Of a DNA stretch of 58,592 bases, positions 1,606 through 50,579 are shown piece by piece. The notes below the pieces were generated by a model that worked only from the letters and a program-made list of their open reading frames with translations, made no database searches and was not told where the DNA came from. Position 1 is the stretch's first letter; each line of letters begins with the position of its first letter. The stretch spans positions 1-58,592 of the forward strand of contig NZ_VWPY01000028.1 of the NCBI RefSeq assembly GCF_011839805.1, read 5' to 3'. Both the position numbers and the translations under genes were made by a program. This DNA comes from Kineococcus rubinsiae. Its GTDB lineage: Bacteria > Actinomycetota > Actinomycetes > Actinomycetales > Kineococcaceae.

Positions 1606-2075
1606 GGCCCTCGCGCGCGGGTGCGCTCGCCGCGGTGGCGGTCGTCGTCGCGGCCCTGACGTGGTCGGCGCTGCGGATCTGGACCGCCCGCGGCGGCACG
1701 GAGCCGGAGCTCATGTGGCGCACCGTGCTGACCGTCGGGCTGCTCGCCGTCGCGGTGTTCGGCGTCGGCTGGCCCGTGCGGCAGTGGGTGCGCGGCGACC
1801 GGAGCCGCCGCATCGACGCCCTGCGCGCGGCCCGCACGGCCGCGCTGGCCAAGGCGTCCTCGTACGCGGGCGCGCTGCTGCTGGGGTTCTTCGCCGGCTA
1901 CGTCGTGCACTTCGTCCCGACGGTCGAGATCGCCGCCCGCCGCAGCCAGCTCGTCCTGGGGCTCGCGGACCTCGTCGCCTCCGGCGTCCTGCTGGCCGCC
2001 GGCCTGCTCGTCGAGCGCTGGTGCCGCGTCCCGCCCGAGGACGACGACGACCGGGGTGCCCTGGCCCGCGGCTGA
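1602..2075 (+). CDS. DUF3180 family membrane protein
   Basis: A 157-residue protein with four hydrophobic segments (roughly residues 6-24, 40-60, 80-105 and 118-140) and short charged ends. DUF3180 proteins sit directly after folK in many actinobacteria; their role is unknown. The start is the GTG at 1602, which overlaps the folK stop by 4 bases. In many relatives the DUF2520-panC genes follow close by; here they are about 37 kb away. Assignment rests on position, size and topology, not on a catalytic motif. Confidence 0.8.
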   Translation: MRPSRAGALAAVAVVVAALTWSALRIWTARGGTEPELMWRTVLTVGLLAVAVFGVGWPVRQWVRGDRSRRIDALRAARTAALAKASSYAGALLLGFFAGYVVHFVPTVEIAARRSQLVLGLADLVASGVLLAAGLLVERWCRVPPEDDDDRGALARG

Positions 2076-2092
2076 CGGGCCGACCTCCGCCG

Positions 2093-2113
2093 CTCGTGAC
2101 GGACCGTCACGAG
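2093..2113. promoter_or_regulatory. Perfect 9-3-9 inverted repeat
   Basis: CTCGTGACG and CGTCACGAG flank a 3-base spacer. It lies 18 bases after the DUF3180 stop and 109 bases before the phosphatase start. There is no T-tract. It could be an operator for a dimeric regulator of the downstream gene or a short transcription terminator of the folate operon; the compact spacing and high symmetry favour an operator. Confidence 0.5.
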
Positions 2114-2221
2114 TGATCTGCCGGGGCAGTGCGGACCTGGCACGATGGTCGGGCAACCAGGGAGGGCGACGACCCGGCTCCCGGTCGCTGCGGGCGGACC
2201 AGGCAGGCGACGGGAGACGGC

Positions 2222-4123
2222 GTGAGCGCACCAGCCGGCGGGCAGGTCCTCGACGTCGCGCACCTCTTCCGCGCGCTGCCCACCGCCTACCTGGTCGTGG
2301 ACCCGGACCTCGTCATCGTCGAGGCCAACGAGGCGTACCTGGAGCTGCTGGGGCGCGAGCGCGGGGACCTGCTGGGGCGGTGGACGTTCGACGCCTTCCC
2401 GCCCGCCCCGGACAGCCTCGACGACCAGGGCCGCAACCCGCTGCAGCTGGCCTTCGAGGAAGCCCGCGACAGCGGGCGCACCGTGCCCCTGCCCCTGTTC
2501 GAGTACGCCGTGCGCGACCTCGCCACCGAGCAGGTGCTCACCCGGTTCTGGTCGCTGATCATCTGCCCCCTGACCTCCCCGGAGGGGGACGTCGTGGCGG
2601 TGCTGCAGCGGGTCGAGGACGTCACCGACTACGTCCTCGAGCGGCGGCAGGCCCGCGCGGACGTCCAGCTGGGCCGTGAGCGGGTGCAGGCGGTCGAGGG
2701 GGACCTCTACCGGCGGATGCAGGAGCTGCAGGTCGCCCAGGGCGAGCGGGAGCGGGCGGTGGCGCAGCTCGCGCGGTTGAGCGAGCTGGCCATGGCGCTG
2801 GCCGCGGCCGACACCGTCGCCGAGGTCGAGCGGACCGTCGTCCGGGCGGGTTCGCAGGTCCTGGGCGCGGAGAGCACCACGCTGGTCTCCCGCGCGGAGG
2901 AGGCCGGCAGGCCGGCGTGGCGCCTCAGCGACGGCGACGGCGGGTCGCCCGGGTCGGTCCCCCACGACAGCACCCTGCCGGTGTGCGAGACCGCCCGCGC
3001 GGGCCGCGGCCCGCACCGGCCCGGGACGTCCGGCCCGGACGGACCCACCGTCCGCGCCGTCCTCGGTCACGACGGTCGCCACCCCGTGACGGGCTCGGCC
3101 GAGGGGAGCGGGGACCGGGAGGAGTCGTGGTGGGTGGTGCTGCCGCTGACGACCGGTGAGCAGCGGCTCGGCTGCCTCGCCGTGAGCTGGAGCCGGGACC
3201 AGCGTCCCTCCGGCGTGCAGGAGGTGCTGCTGCAGGGCTTCGCCGCCCAGTGCGCGCAGACGCTGGCGCGCCTGGGGGCCCGGGAGGTCGAGCGCCGCGA
3301 CGCGGCGGAGCACCGCCGGATGAGCGCGGCCCTGCAGCGGGCCCTGCTGACCAGCCCGCCCGAGTCCGAGCACACGCAGGTCGTCGTGCGCTACCAGCCG
3401 GCGGCCACGGCCGCGCAGGTCGGCGGCGACTGGTACGACGCGTTCGTGCAGCCCGGCGGGGCCACGGTCGTGGTCATCGGTGACGTCCTGGGGCACGACA
3501 CCTTCGCCGCGGCCACCATGGGGCAGGTCCGCACGGTCCTGCGCACGATCGGGGTGCTCGACGACGAGTCGCCCGCGAGCGTCCTGACCAAGACCGACCG
3601 GGCCATGGCCCACCTGCAGCTCGGCACCACCGCCACCGCGATCGTGGCGCGGCTGGAGCAGGACCCGGACGAGCGCCGCGAGGGCCTGACGCAGCTGCGG
3701 TGGTCCAACGCCGGGCACCCGCCCGCGATGCTCCTGCACCCCGACGGCACGGTGGAGGTCGTCAGCACCGAGCACGCGGACCTGCTGCTGGGGGTCGTGC
3801 CCGACAGCGCGCGCCAGGAGACGGTCCACCTGCTCCCGCGGGAGGCGACGCTGCTGCTCTACACCGACGGCCTCGTCGAGCGCCGCGACCAGGACCTGCA
3901 GCAGGGGCTCGAGCTCCTGGCGCAGACGCTGCGCGAGCTCGGCGCGGACGGCCCGGACCTGGACACCCTGGTCGACCGGGTGCTGGCGCGCATGCTGCCG
4001 CCCCAGCCGGAGGACGACGTCGCGGTGATCGCCGTCCGCCTGCACCGCCAGGACCGTCCCCGCCCCGCGGCGGCCGGCCCGCAGCGGGATCCCGGGGACG
4101 TGCCGCCCGAAGCGGGGCCCTGA
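2222..4123 (+). CDS. PAS-GAF-SpoIIE (PP2C-type) serine/threonine phosphatase
   Basis: A 633-residue RsbU/SpoIIE-type phosphatase. A PAS domain covers about residues 15-130 (YLVVDPDLVIVEANEAYLEL), then a charged, probably coiled-coil linker, a GAF domain (about 185-365) and the catalytic domain (about 385-610). Metal-binding elements are visible as GGDWYDAF, IGDVLGHD, WSNAGHPP, LLLYTDGLVE and PEDDVAVIAVR. Such proteins dephosphorylate anti-sigma-factor antagonists in response to a signal sensed by PAS or GAF. The GTG at 2222 was chosen because GGGAGA lies about 5 bases upstream and the upstream frame has no PAS similarity. It stands alone, with no antagonist or anti-sigma kinase next to it. 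Confidence 0.9.
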   Translation: MSAPAGGQVLDVAHLFRALPTAYLVVDPDLVIVEANEAYLELLGRERGDLLGRWTFDAFPPAPDSLDDQGRNPLQLAFEEARDSGRTVPLPLFEYAVRDLATEQVLTRFWSLIICPLTSPEGDVVAVLQRVEDVTDYVLERRQARADVQLGRERVQAVEGDLYRRMQELQVAQGERERAVAQLARLSELAMALAAADTVAEVERTVVRAGSQVLGAESTTLVSRAEEAGRPAWRLSDGDGGSPGSVPHDSTLPVCETARAGRGPHRPGTSGPDGPTVRAVLGHDGRHPVTGSAEGSGDREESWWVVLPLTTGEQRLGCLAVSWSRDQRPSGVQEVLLQGFAAQCAQTLARLGAREVERRDAAEHRRMSAALQRALLTSPPESEHTQVVVRYQPAATAAQVGGDWYDAFVQPGGATVVVIGDVLGHDTFAAATMGQVRTVLRTIGVLDDESPASVLTKTDRAMAHLQLGTTATAIVARLEQDPDERREGLTQLRWSNAGHPPAMLLHPDGTVEVVSTEHADLLLGVVPDSARQETVHLLPREATLLLYTDGLVERRDQDLQQGLELLAQTLRELGADGPDLDTLVDRVLARMLPPQPEDDVAVIAVRLHRQDRPRPAAAGPQRDPGDVPPEAGP

Positions 4124-4138
4124 CGGCCGGGGCGCCGC

Positions 4139-4654
4139 TCAGTCGTCGAAGACGCACCAGCAGAGGTGGTTGCGCCGCTCCTGGTCGCTGAGGACGAGCT
4201 CGACGAGGTGCGCGGGGAGCTGCCGGCGCTGCCAGTCCCGCTCGGCGCGCCCCCGCGCGGAGGCCCCGTCGGCCGGCGTCGCCGCCCGGACCGCCTTGAT
4301 CGCGTAAGCCGCGGCGCCCAGGTCGTGCTCCGGGACGTGCGCGACGCACGCGGCCTGCCCGGCGGCGTACGCGGCCCACCGCGCCGCACCCCGCAGCGGC
4401 CGCGCCGCCCCCATGGCGTGCCCGCCGGCGGCGCGGGTCGCCGTCATCGTCCGCTCGCCGCGGGCCCAGGCGCGGGCGGCCTCGACCGCCTCCCGGGGAC
4501 GCGGGTCCAGGGGGGCCACCTCCTCGAACAGCGGCAGCACGTGCTCGGCGCACGCGGCCGCCCACCGGGCGAGGGCGTGGTGGTCGTCGTCGGTGAGGGT
4601 GCCGCCCCGGCGCTCCGTCACGAGCCGCGGGTCCCGCACGGGCGGGAGGATCAC
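4139..4654 (-). CDS. Imm5-like putative immunity protein
   Basis: A 171-residue, mostly helical protein. The pattern (HALARWAAACAEHVLPLFEE, then a DPRPREAVEAARAWARGE helix, alanine-rich helices, RDWQRRQLPAHL and a C-terminal LCWCVFDD) matches what I recall of the actinobacterial proteins named 'putative immunity protein' (Imm5-like). Whether they protect against any toxin is unproven, and no toxin is visible nearby. The GTG start overlaps the stop of the upstream HEAT-repeat gene by 4 bases, so the two are co-translated. Confidence 0.6.
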   Translation of the reverse strand: MILPPVRDPRLVTERRGGTLTDDDHHALARWAAACAEHVLPLFEEVAPLDPRPREAVEAARAWARGERTMTATRAAGGHAMGAARPLRGAARWAAYAAGQAACVAHVPEHDLGAAAYAIKAVRAATPADGASARGRAERDWQRRQLPAHLVELVLSDQERRNHLCWCVFDD

Positions 4655-5436
4655 GGGGAGGGCGGGCGGAGGCCCTCGACGACCGCGGTCACGGCGCTCT
4701 CGCGCCGGTCGGCGCCGGGGTCCTCGCCGCGGGCCCAGAGCGGGACGAGGACGGGGGCGTCGCCGGGCTCGCGCGCGGCCAGCAGCACCGTGCGCGGGTA
4801 GGCGCCGCGGAGCTCGAGGAGGGCGAGTCCCGGCACGGCACGGCGGACCGCCCCGACCACGGCGACCTCGGCCGCGTGGGCGTCGTCCGCCGCGCCCGGC
4901 CGGCTGCGGGCCAGGGCGGCGTCGAGGAGCGGGGTGAACTCGTCGTCGTCGCCCGCCCAGTCCTCCGCGAGGCGCAGCAGCTCCGCGTGCAGCGCGGGGT
5001 CGGCGAGGACGACCGCGGCCTCGAGCTCCAGGAGGGTGAGGTTCGTGCCGCTGCCCAGGCGGGCCAGCAGCGCCGTCCGCGCCCGGTCGTCGCCGGTCGA
5101 GGCCAGCGCCAGCATCGCCTCGGAGCGGACGTCGGGGTCGCGGTCGTCGAGCAGGACGACCAGGGCGTCGCGGACCGCCGGGGTGTCGGCCTCGACCTGG
5201 GCCAGGCCGAACGCCGCCCAGTCGCGGACCCGGGGCTCTTCGTCGCGGGTGAGGGCGACGAGCGCGTCGACGACCCGCCCGGTCAGGGCGCCGCCCGCCA
5301 CCACGGCCCCACCGGGCAGGGCCCGCACCAGGGCGAGCCGGATCCGGGCGTCGGGGTGCGTGAGGGGCACGTGGTCCAGGAGCACGGCCGCGCTGTCCGG
5401 CTCCCAGACGTCGCCGAGGGCGTCGACCGCCGCCAC
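4651..5436 (-). CDS. HEAT-repeat protein
   Basis: At least 261 residues. The N-terminal two-thirds are HEAT-like helical pairs with recurring DPDVRSEAMLALAS and EPRVRDWAAFGLAQ units; the last 60 or so residues are a mixed region (RRAVPGLALLELRGAYPRTV). HEAT repeats usually bind proteins. The start is uncertain. GTG at 5436 begins inside what reads like a helix, and the frame stays open and plausible (TPEQAALLAAGDDPDAL) up to a CTG at 5490 that would overlap the upstream stop as CTGA, giving 279 residues. It is coupled to the Imm5-like gene downstream. Confidence 0.75.
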   Translation of the reverse strand: MAAVDALGDVWEPDSAAVLLDHVPLTHPDARIRLALVRALPGGAVVAGGALTGRVVDALVALTRDEEPRVRDWAAFGLAQVEADTPAVRDALVVLLDDRDPDVRSEAMLALASTGDDRARTALLARLGSGTNLTLLELEAAVVLADPALHAELLRLAEDWAGDDDEFTPLLDAALARSRPGAADDAHAAEVAVVGAVRRAVPGLALLELRGAYPRTVLLAAREPGDAPVLVPLWARGEDPGADRRESAVTAVVEGLRPPSP

Positions 5437-49214: not shown

Positions 49215-49328
49215 CCCGCTCCCGGCGATCCGGGGCAGTGCCGCCGTCCGGGTGACGGGGGTTCCCCCCGCGGTGACGGGCAGGGCACAGTGGAAGGGCG
49301 AGCGAGGCCCACGAGGGTCGCGCTCCGT

Positions 49329-49404
49329 GCGGGTCAGGCGTCCGGTGGGGACGCACTCCGGCTCCACCGGAGAGAGCCAGGTTCGAGCCCTGGGACCCGC
49401 TCCA
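49329..49404 (+). tRNA. tRNA-Gly-like cloverleaf with abnormal D and anticodon arms
   Basis: A 76-nt cloverleaf with 24 Watson-Crick pairs and no mismatch. Acceptor GCGGGTC (49329-49335) pairs with GACCCGC (49394-49400). D arm is 6 bp with a GGTGG loop (49338-49354), anticodon arm 6 bp with a CTCCA loop (49356-49372), variable loop 4 nt. The T arm CCAGG-TTCGAGC-CCTGG (49377-49393) is canonical; then T73 and encoded CCA. Read with a 5-bp anticodon stem, the anticodon is TCC. G1-C72, C2-G71, G3-C70, U73, C35 and C36 are the glycine identity set. Odd points: AG at 8-9, no A14/A21, C33 instead of U33, and G32-C38 pairing that closes the loop. It may be a non-decoding glycine tRNA, or a decayed one. 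A terminator follows 6 bases later. Confidence 0.62.
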
Positions 49405-49410
49405 CCCGAT

Positions 49411-49464
49411 CGGCAGGACGACGTTCCCCCCGGCGCAGCGCGGCGCCGGGGGGAACGCCTGCCG
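49411..49464. terminator. Large hairpin terminator after the tRNA-like element
   Basis: An inner perfect 14-bp stem (GTTCCCCCCGGCGC with its complement, loop AGCGCG) sits inside an outer 7-bp CGGCAGG/CCTGCCG stem. It lies between the tRNA-like element and the end of the convergent oxidoreductase operon and may serve both strands. Confidence 0.8.
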
Positions 49465-49487: not shown

Positions 49488-50579
49488 TCACCCCGCCCGG
49501 CCGCCCGGGGTCAGGTCCGTCGCGGCGAGCTGGGCCTGGATGGCGATCTCGATGGCCGTGAAGGCGTGCTCCTGCGTCATCGCCACCTCGGTGCGCTCCA
49601 GGCAGTCCAGCACCAGCTGCCCGAAGTACGGGTAGCCCACTGTGCCGGTGACCTGGAAGTGCGTCTCCTCCCGGCCGTTGGTGAGGAACAGGTGCCCCGG
49701 GCCCTCCTGCGTCGCGAGGTTCACGTACTTGCGCTGCTCGATGAACCCCTCGGTGCCGAGGATGAACGTCCGGCCGTCGCCCCAGGTCTGCAGGCCGTCT
49801 GGGGTGAACCAGTCGCAGCGGAAGTACCCGGTGGCGCCGGTGTCGGTGACGAGGTTCGCGTCGCCGAAGTCGTCGAAGCCGGGGTGCTCGGGGTGCGCGT
49901 AGTTCGCGATCTGGCTGTTCGCGACCCGGGCGCCGCGGGAGCCCGTGTAGTGCAGCACCTGGTCGACGTTGTGGCTGCCGATGTCGATGAGGATCCCGCC
50001 GTGCTTGGCCCGGTCGAAGAACCAGTCCGCCCGGCTCGGGGCGTTCAACCGGTGCGGCCCCAGGCCGATGACCTGCAGGACGCGACCGATCGCGCCCTGC
50101 TCGATGAGCTGGCCGGCGAACACCGCGGTCTCGACGTGGACGCGCTCGGAGTAGTAGACGGCGTACTTGCGCCCCGTGCGGGCGACGGCCTCGCGGGCCG
50201 CGGCGAGCTGCTCCAGCGTCGTCAGCGGGGCCTTGTCGCTGAAGTAGTCCTTGCCGGCCTCCATGACCCGCACGCCCAGCGCGGACCGGTCGCTGGGGAC
50301 GGCCGCAGAGGCCACCAGCTGCACCTCGGGGTCGTCGAGCACCTCGTCGGGGGAGCGGGCGACGCGGACGTCGGGGAAGTGCCCGCGGAAGGCCTCGACC
50401 TTGGCGGGGTCGGGGTCGTGCACCCACTTCAGGGTCGCGCCGGCCCCGGCGAGGCCCTCGCACATGCCGTGGATGTGGCCGTGGTCCAGGCCGATCGCCG
50501 CGGCGACGAACGCGCCGGGTTCCACGACGGGGTCGGGCACGGGGGCGGGCGCGTAGCTGCCGCCGTCGGTGGCGCTCAC
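49488..50579 (-). CDS. Gfo/Idh/MocA family oxidoreductase (third of operon)
   Basis: 363 residues. The dinucleotide region is atypical at the start (VAAAIGLDHGHIHGMCEGLA instead of a GxGxxG loop), but the later SDKAPLTTLEQLAAAREAV, HGGILIDIGSHNVDQVLHYTG and TEGFIEQRKY patterns are typical; the usual EKP is DKAP. It likely oxidises or epimerises a sugar or sugar acid. GTG 50579 overlaps the upstream stop by 4 bases. It ends the minus-strand operon with uxaC. Confidence 0.85.
   Translation of the reverse strand: MSATDGGSYAPAPVPDPVVEPGAFVAAAIGLDHGHIHGMCEGLAGAGATLKWVHDPDPAKVEAFRGHFPDVRVARSPDEVLDDPEVQLVASAAVPSDRSALGVRVMEAGKDYFSDKAPLTTLEQLAAAREAVARTGRKYAVYYSERVHVETAVFAGQLIEQGAIGRVLQVIGLGPHRLNAPSRADWFFDRAKHGGILIDIGSHNVDQVLHYTGSRGARVANSQIANYAHPEHPGFDDFGDANLVTDTGATGYFRCDWFTPDGLQTWGDGRTFILGTEGFIEQRKYVNLATQEGPGHLFLTNGREETHFQVTGTVGYPYFGQLVLDCLERTEVAMTQEHAFTAIEIAIQAQLAATDLTPGGRAG

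Follow-up and report, generated by a model that had tools for sequence, protein, structure and literature searches.

The window, by which we mean the whole stretch of DNA analyzed here, comprises 58,592 nt of Kineococcus rubinsiae (GCF_011839805.1, contig NZ_VWPY01000028.1, positions 1 to 58,592, forward strand). The only tRNA that ARAGORN finds in it is a tRNA-Gly(tcc) lying at exactly 49329-49404 on the plus strand. Its minimum-free-energy fold (-42.9 kcal/mol) is a 7/6/6/5 cloverleaf of 24 Watson-Crick pairs; the preliminary description of this DNA had given the same uninterrupted pairs, together with a TTCGAGC T-loop, U73 and an encoded CCA, and the sequence, the fold and the ARAGORN call at the same coordinates bear it out. 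The locus contains the following features.

49300..49325, + strand: leader hairpin, 3 nt ahead of the tRNA, within the stretch conserved in a copy from the same genus (49299-49402, 85%)
49329..49404, + strand: non-canonical tRNA-Gly gene, 7/6/6/5 cloverleaf (ARAGORN, fold, same-genus copy, covariation)
49329..49335, + strand: 5' half of the acceptor stem, GCGGGTC, partner of 49394-49400 (sequence, fold)
49336..49337, + strand: A8 and G9, the A replacing the usual U8 (U8 in 97/97 ordinary tRNAs of the fetched loci, A8 in the same-genus copy)
49338..49354, + strand: D arm, 6 bp and a 5-nt loop, or alternatively 4 bp with extra cross-loop pairs (fold, 11-sequence alignment)
49356..49372, + strand: anticodon arm, 6 bp and the 5-nt loop CTCCA, closed by G32-C38 (fold)
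49363..49365, + strand: anticodon TCC (ARAGORN)
49377..49393, + strand: T arm, CCAGG-TTCGAGC-CCTGG (sequence, fold; the 17-nt arm is identical in the linked tRNA of locus L254)
49394..49400, + strand: 3' half of the acceptor stem, GACCCGC (sequence, fold)
49401..49404, + strand: discriminator U73 and encoded CCA, where the same-genus copy has CTT (sequence)
49411..49464, + strand: long GC-rich hairpin after the CCA, starting 6 bases past it and lacking a T run

Considered alone, the fold energy exceeds chance by a moderate margin only: shuffled sequences have a mean of -34.5 kcal/mol (z -2.2) and 8 of 200 fold as low. The case for the cloverleaf is carried by the comparative evidence given below, and the cloverleaf is real. 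The gene is not an ordinary tRNA-Gly. Scans for tRNAs, suggested in the preliminary description, gave two answers: the Rfam tRNA model RF00005 does not match the gene at its gathering score, nor at E values up to 10 on the short stretch, which speaks for a non-ordinary shape, and ARAGORN calls tRNA-Gly(tcc). With the same Rfam model, the 51 other tRNAs of the 4.88-Mb host genome score 48.7-79 bits. Right at the edge of host contig C12 (27-249, locus L033) we also observed a further tRNA-Ile(gat)/tRNA-Ala(tgc) pair, whose CCA is encoded; its sequences are unlike those of the host's own pair on contig C87, and it is possibly a contaminating piece of an rRNA operon.

Bacterial glycyl-tRNA synthetases recognize G1-C72, C2-G71, G3-C70, U73, C35 and C36, and the whole set is present in the sequence of the window tRNA, which suggests that it accepts glycine. 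A closed 5-nt anticodon loop and the loss of U8-A14 are expected to hinder decoding. In the window tRNA, A8 and C14 stand in place of the U8-A14 of ordinary decoding tRNAs, A14 and A21 are missing, and instead of an open 7-nt anticodon loop with U33 there is C33 in a loop closed by G32-C38; C33, G32-C38 and the lack of A14 and A21, like the identity set, are as first described. With such a shape the tRNA would be kept out of translation. The D arm, described earlier as 6 bp with a 5-nt loop, has this form in the fold and can also be read as 4 bp with a 9-nt loop (8 nt in the same-genus copy) whose bases pair across the loop. The long hairpin past the CCA had been described as a terminator. The hairpin and its position hold; it lacks a T run, and a terminator scan gave it no score. 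It aligns poorly with the same-genus copy and is possibly a bidirectional terminator, common to the convergent frame ending at 49488. The leader hairpin is matched by 4 of 40 shuffles that fold equally well, and a scan for one promoter type, sigma-70, found no match ahead of either the window tRNA or the same-genus copy.

The host has an ordinary set of glycine tRNAs, namely Gly(CCC), Gly(GCC) and Gly(UCC), and the window tRNA is thus dispensable for glycine codons. Comparison with the host tRNA-Gly(UCC), also suggested at the outset, showed a nearly identical acceptor stem, close to that of Gly(CCC) as well, in which the seventh pair is swapped from G-C to C-G; over the whole gene, identity to six ordinary tRNA-Gly of the host and the same-genus genome reaches at most 53%. 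The gene is present in 2 of 12 genomes of the family, the host included. The other copy (genome G001, same genus) is 91% identical (E 4.3e-22), and the similarity between the two genomes spans 49299-49402 at 85%. Nothing else matched by blastn at that place in the 16 kb around the G001 copy, and none of 11 window frames has a counterpart beside it; the sole protein match nearby is a regulator, 32% identical and about 4.4 kb off. The neighboring genes thus differ between the two genomes. Within the tRNA, 9 of 76 positions differ and seven of these nine are unpaired in the window fold (hypergeometric P 0.01); in the leader, 21 of 32 positions are identical. The G001 copy shares A8, C14 and G32-C38, has U33, lacks the CCA and misses one pair of the D stem.

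Further genes of this type were sought with a covariance model (R1) built from the window tRNA and its same-genus copy. Among 396 genomes of the order, 54 contained a match, giving 57 weaker matches beside the window and the copy; of the 28 loci inspected among these 57, 27 were ordinary tRNAs and one, locus L102, was odd. Over 396 genomes of the phylum, at E <= 1e-7, the same model returned the window tRNA only. Another model (R3), with the window and the copy included and 12 candidates scored per genome, matched in 162 of 394 genomes of the class at E <= 1e-9; the window was best with 78.2 bits, and the next 29 loci were all ordinary tRNA-Gly(gcc) at the match. Window DNA compared with plasmids (301 nt) and with phages (121 nt) gave no match, and two window-type patterns scanned in viral contigs were not found there.

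The exception, L102, is an odd tRNA-Gly with U73 and CCA. The gene that follows it immediately encodes a protein with matches to the families PF22555 (DAM-like-phage1) and PF22559 (GNAT-phage-like). A tblastn search with this frame found 13 phage records. In eight mycobacteriophage records, representing six phages, an annotated tRNA-Gly lies beneath the point where the match begins; for Clawz and Jollymon, two Gordonia phages, ARAGORN reports no tRNA there, and a tRNA-like match is obtained with R1 or with R2, a covariance model built from linked tRNAs only. The DAM-like/GNAT gene also occurs on ten plasmids, five of them actinobacterial. Among the nine plasmids examined, the five actinobacterial ones carry an upstream tRNA-Gly, and three from Peribacillus and one from Salmonella show no upstream tRNA by ARAGORN, R1 or R2.

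An alignment of ten DAM-like/GNAT proteins (A5) recovered 167 relatives in viral contigs, where earlier scans with single proteins had found 0 and 1, and 45 in genome contigs, from records naming Actinomycetota, Bacillota, Planctomycetota and others. All 45 and 80 of the 167 make up a set of 125 loci, in which a gene was counted as linked if a tRNA or tRNA-like match lay at most 900 nt upstream on the same strand. This is the case in 84 of the 125 loci (67 by ARAGORN, 17 by R2 only), in 80 of the 115 whose upstream DNA is 450 nt or longer, and in 74 of 111 once near-identical loci are merged. The 67 tRNAs called by ARAGORN are 63 tRNA-Gly and 4 untyped, with none for another amino acid, and elsewhere in the 125 loci ARAGORN finds only four tRNAs (3 Gly, 1 Leu). 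Record titles place the linked loci in Actinomycetota and Bacillota, and also in Planctomycetota, where the tRNA is a model match only. No tRNA lies within 900 nt upstream in 41 of the 125 loci, 35 of which have at least 450 nt of upstream DNA. Searches with PF22555 over the 396 phylum genomes and with PF22559 over 12 relatives gave nothing, and in these no positive control matched either. The link between tRNA-Gly and this enzyme may be new to the literature, as far as the titles and abstract openings of the open-licence PMC articles listed in literature searches go, none of which ties tRNA-Gly to the enzyme or to DNA modification.

Some loci show other arrangements. tRNA-like matches occur about 2 kb downstream of the DAM-like/GNAT start in L193 (3884), L205 (4782), L199 (2750), L203 (4490) and L210 (4529), and 1.6-2.5 kb upstream, past the 900-nt range, in L174 (699), L206 (854) and L180 (9). 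A leader hairpin was considered as a mark of the linked tRNAs and rejected, as it is equally common before ordinary ones: for the best hairpin in the 45 nt upstream, the median is -13.7 kcal/mol among linked tRNAs (n = 63) and -12.0 among ordinary ones (n = 67), and 44/63 versus 46/67 reach -10 or below. Separately, the Streptomyces-type loci L183, L190, L191, L198, L200, L246, L247 and L257 resemble one another in a long hairpin immediately ahead of the linked tRNA, which may be a conserved RNA element of its own.

To describe the shape of the linked tRNAs, we used 64 distinct sequences, taken from the 125 loci and from the phage and plasmid loci L124, L129 and L131-L133. The ordinary tRNAs compared with them are 97 distinct sequences in 87 fetched loci, L102 excluded, and are not a genome-wide sample. 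In an alignment (A6) of 41 of the 64, picked by eye for an actinobacterial look with 23 left out, 97.1% of the cells pair and 15 of 21 pairs have changed on both sides; all 41 rows agree in G1-C72, C2-G71, G3-C70 and U73, and also in one anticodon C. Positions 32 and 38, scorable in 60 of the 64, form a standard pair in 58 and specifically C-G or G-C in 54, against 1/97 for the ordinary tRNAs and 0/21 for ordinary tRNA-Gly. Since 18 of these 21 hold U-A or A-U there, only the strong C-G/G-C pair is distinctive. The combination U8 + A14 occurs in 97/97 ordinary tRNAs versus 38/64 linked ones, and A8 with a pyrimidine at 14 in 0/97 versus 10/64, where it marks an L152/Micromonospora-type subgroup. 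The window tRNA and its copy share both the A8/Y14 combination and the C-G/G-C 32-38 pair with the linked tRNAs.

These features outline a family of tRNA-Gly that keeps the identity bases for glycyl-tRNA synthetase and would have lost the decoding shape, with loss of U8-A14 in a subgroup and an optional U33. The family shades into ordinary tRNAs, as 7 of 16 linked tRNAs tested pass the Rfam tRNA cut-off; together with the 38/64 that have U8 + A14 and the U33 kept in 51/60, this means that some linked tRNAs may decode. The same U33 and U8-A14 counts favor an alternative reading, in which the gene is an unusual decoding tRNA or else an anti-defense tRNA with which mobile elements replace a host tRNA-Gly cleaved by tRNA-targeting immunity. 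Against it, decoding should be hindered both by the closed 5-nt loop and by the missing U8-A14, and the linkage concerns one amino acid and one enzyme gene rather than a set of tRNAs; phage tRNAs have been proposed or shown to evade such defenses, according to excerpts of two reports (PMC10264068, PMC11555353). On balance we regard the reading as unlikely.

The relationship of the window tRNA to these genes was analyzed in an alignment of 11 sequences (A9), namely the window tRNA, its same-genus copy and nine linked tRNAs. In it 99.6% of the cells are paired, 14 of 23 pairs have changed on both sides, and the compensatory change for which the preliminary description proposed a search is seen in all four stems; at 32-38, six rows have GC and five have CG. 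The sequence nearest to the window tRNA and its copy is the linked tRNA of L152, on a 62-kb viral contig (70-71% identity), and the branch joining the three has a support of 80/88. The data do not reject a tree that places the window tRNA and its copy with the six ordinary tRNA-Gly of the host and G001 (p-AU 0.19). R2 was discarded as a classifier, because it does not separate the window tRNA (57.6 bits) from the ordinary tRNA-Gly of the host (61.8, 61.3 and 54.9 bits).

It had been proposed that the gene might be a decayed copy held by compensatory change, and a drifting copy of a host tRNA-Gly could in principle have reached its shape independently. Such an origin would account for an acceptor stem that is nearly that of host Gly(UCC) and Gly(CCC), and agrees with the p-AU value and with the failure of R2 to tell the window tRNA from ordinary tRNA-Gly. 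It is at odds with the identities, at most 53% to the six ordinary genes versus 70-71% to L152, with the covariation found in all stems jointly with linked tRNAs, and with the distribution of A8, Y14 and the C-G/G-C pair at 32-38, which are common to linked tRNAs and nearly absent from ordinary ones. The oddities are thus traits shared with other genes and not private damage, so that decay fits less well, and we hold this origin to be very improbable. By its structure, the window tRNA very likely belongs to the non-decoding tRNA-Gly family seen beside DAM-like/GNAT genes, and this linked family likely has a non-ribosomal role.

What that role could be depends on the linked enzyme, for which 'PAAM' served as a working name. 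All 42 proteins aligned match both PF22555 and PF22559 (alignment A8), and the AlphaFold model has a mean pLDDT of 93.1 and a pTM of 0.75. GNAT acetyltransferases (RimI, Naa60, Naa50), and not enzymes using aminoacyl-tRNA, head the PDB structure matches listed; a PDB search by sequence gave no match, and NCBIfam holds no name for the two DAM-like/GNAT proteins scanned. With motif IV as defined for methyltransferases, the position preceding the PP in the putative motif is occupied by F or Y in 38 of the 42 proteins, by S in one and by D or N in none. GNAT enzymes that use acetyl-CoA have a glycine-rich loop after the fourth strand; in the 42 proteins this stretch is mostly Y-K/R-R-L-S/A-K-L, with no glycine-rich loop. 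The lack of both D/N and this loop makes a donor other than acetyl-CoA plausible, and fits a DAM-like domain that positions the base without methylating it and a GNAT domain that uses another donor. A ParB-like gene follows the DAM-like/GNAT gene in L124 (3919-4803) and L132 (3365-4315), found by family search, and in L152 (about 3890-4791, by eye), and terminase genes lie nearby in several records; with the DAM-like domain, these neighbors make the linked enzyme point to DNA. We predict that the protein is a Mom-like DNA-modifying enzyme.

One of the options named in the preliminary description was a glycine tRNA retained for work outside the ribosome, and the recurrence of non-decoding traits upstream of one predicted DNA-modifying enzyme speaks for it, against which stands the host genome, where no linked enzyme is found. 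The DAM-like domain, the following ParB-like gene, the nearby terminase genes of several records and the missing acetyl-CoA loop also bear on a different role for the enzyme, in which its GNAT domain would act on glycyl-tRNA itself and the tRNA would be a substrate, decoy or regulator instead of a donor. All four speak against this role, which finds its precedent in toxins known to acetylate aminoacyl-tRNAs (PMC9177977, in the part of that report available) and agrees with the acetyltransferases among the PDB matches listed; it appears quite unlikely to us.

Three other observations concern the enzyme gene. In L102, a S-adenosylmethionine-synthetase-like gene (2038-3012, minus strand) lies two genes upstream of it. 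The L102 protein also matches phrog_2443, its GNAT part being similar to the end of a phage family that is 801 positions long and bears the name amidoligase, a likeness hinting at other amino-acid-linking fusions. In two Streptomyces plasmids (L133 and L134, 2004-3356) the gene is annotated as three short proteins and may therefore be broken.

The linked enzyme was not found with PF22559 in the host or G001 genomes, although the positive control G324 scored 147.8 bits. This genome is from the same order as the host, and its linked enzyme is 100% identical, over 470 residues, to a protein on record for Gleimia europaea. Alignment A5 found no enzyme in the two genomes either, apart from one G001 match of E 0.5 over 60 of 441 positions, taken as noise. 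As far as these searches see, the window tRNA is an orphan, and no full cassette of tRNA and DAM-like/GNAT gene was seen here.

The reading that we slightly favor is that the window tRNA is a chromosomal, stand-alone member of a non-decoding tRNA-Gly family and that its linked relatives would supply a putative Mom-like enzyme with glycine. In the proposed mechanism, the host glycyl-tRNA synthetase would charge the linked tRNA with glycine, and its shape, with the 5-nt anticodon loop closed by the C-G/G-C 32-38 pair, would keep it off the ribosome. The GNAT domain would then take the glycyl group and transfer it to DNA, probably to adenine, the DAM-like domain placing the target base, and the outcome would be a modification of the Mom type that protects against restriction. 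That the tRNA is charged and kept out of translation, that glycyl is transferred and that DNA is the target are all deduced from sequences and models, and for the donation of glycine to DNA by the linked tRNAs we would put the chances at somewhat less than even.

Whether the window copy itself has a present function is, in our estimate, a matter of even chances: it may be a relic that has outlasted the element it came with, or it may have a partner other than the linked enzyme. A relic would be a member of the same tRNA family left by a lost phage or plasmid and functionless in the present host. The lack of a promoter match and the rarity of the gene (two of 12 family genomes) favor it, and it would also explain why the linked enzyme is unmatched in the host and G001 genomes, why the neighboring genes differ between them, why the window tRNA has C33 and why the copy lacks the CCA and one D-arm pair. 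Conversely, all 24 pairs of the window tRNA are intact, which favors selection or a recent arrival; seven of the nine differences fall outside the stems, while the DNA beyond 49299-49402 has no blastn match there; and the promoter scan was limited to one promoter type. Because the host genome gave no match to the linked enzyme and the tree does not reject kinship with ordinary tRNA-Gly, relic status keeps real weight, and we consider it a serious possibility, somewhat short of an even one.

More tentatively, the favored reading can be extended to a general scheme in which a translation-excluded tRNA-Gly family is the glycine donor for DNA base modification, the tRNA and the transferase form one phage or plasmid cassette, and the window tRNA is a chromosomally kept donor without its enzyme, serving a resident partner or incoming elements. 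If the donor role is true, phage-borne tRNAs would be used outside translation and bring an amino acid to DNA, which would partly explain the lone, oddly shaped tRNA genes of some phages and would offer a testable route to a glycine-derived base modification. Since one amino acid and one enzyme family are concerned in several phyla, existing mycobacteriophages of Mycobacterium smegmatis would allow the question to be tested directly. The window tRNA adds that a gene of this kind can be maintained on a chromosome where no such enzyme is found.

Finally, the window tRNA can be compared with known systems. It resembles an ordinary bacterial tRNA-Gly(UCC) in the acceptor identity bases, U73, the anticodon TCC and the canonical T arm, and differs from it by the 5-nt anticodon loop with G32-C38, by A8/C14 in place of U8/A14, by the 6-bp D stem and by the lack of an RF00005 match. 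With the linked tRNA-Gly of phages and plasmids it shares the identity bases, the C-G/G-C 32-38 pair, the T arm and, for the L152/Micromonospora-type subgroup, A8/Y14; unlike them, it has no DAM-like/GNAT gene adjoining it or found in the genome. The peptidoglycan tRNA-Gly of staphylococci is likewise a glycine tRNA presumably held out of translation for another job, through changes of its own that probably differ from those of the window tRNA; none of our observations suggests a part in peptidoglycan synthesis for the window tRNA. tRNA-Sec has an acceptor domain of 12-13 bp, obtained with a longer acceptor or T stem, and a long variable arm, whereas the fold of the window tRNA has 7 + 5 bp and a 4-nt variable loop, with glycine identity bases. 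tRNA-Pyl has at most one base between the acceptor and D stems and a 3-nt variable loop, whereas the window tRNA has two bases and four nucleotides, respectively. In part the window tRNA is like both, since excerpts of PMC7609411 describe a 6-bp D stem for tRNA-Sec and a 6-bp anticodon stem with a short D loop for tRNA-Pyl. Mom of phage Mu is a GNAT enzyme described as transferring an acyl group to the N6 of adenine, with glycyl-CoA among the possible donors (PMC7824862, in the part available); our enzyme is likened to it by its predicted function and not by homology, and differs from it in being linked to a tRNA-Gly gene. CmoX/CmoY also place glycine on phage DNA, as described in the accessible part of PMC12783734, which reports an ATP-dependent ligase acting on cytosine and mentions no tRNA donor. 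The use of a tRNA-Gly as glycine donor for DNA modification is our own proposal from the present analysis.
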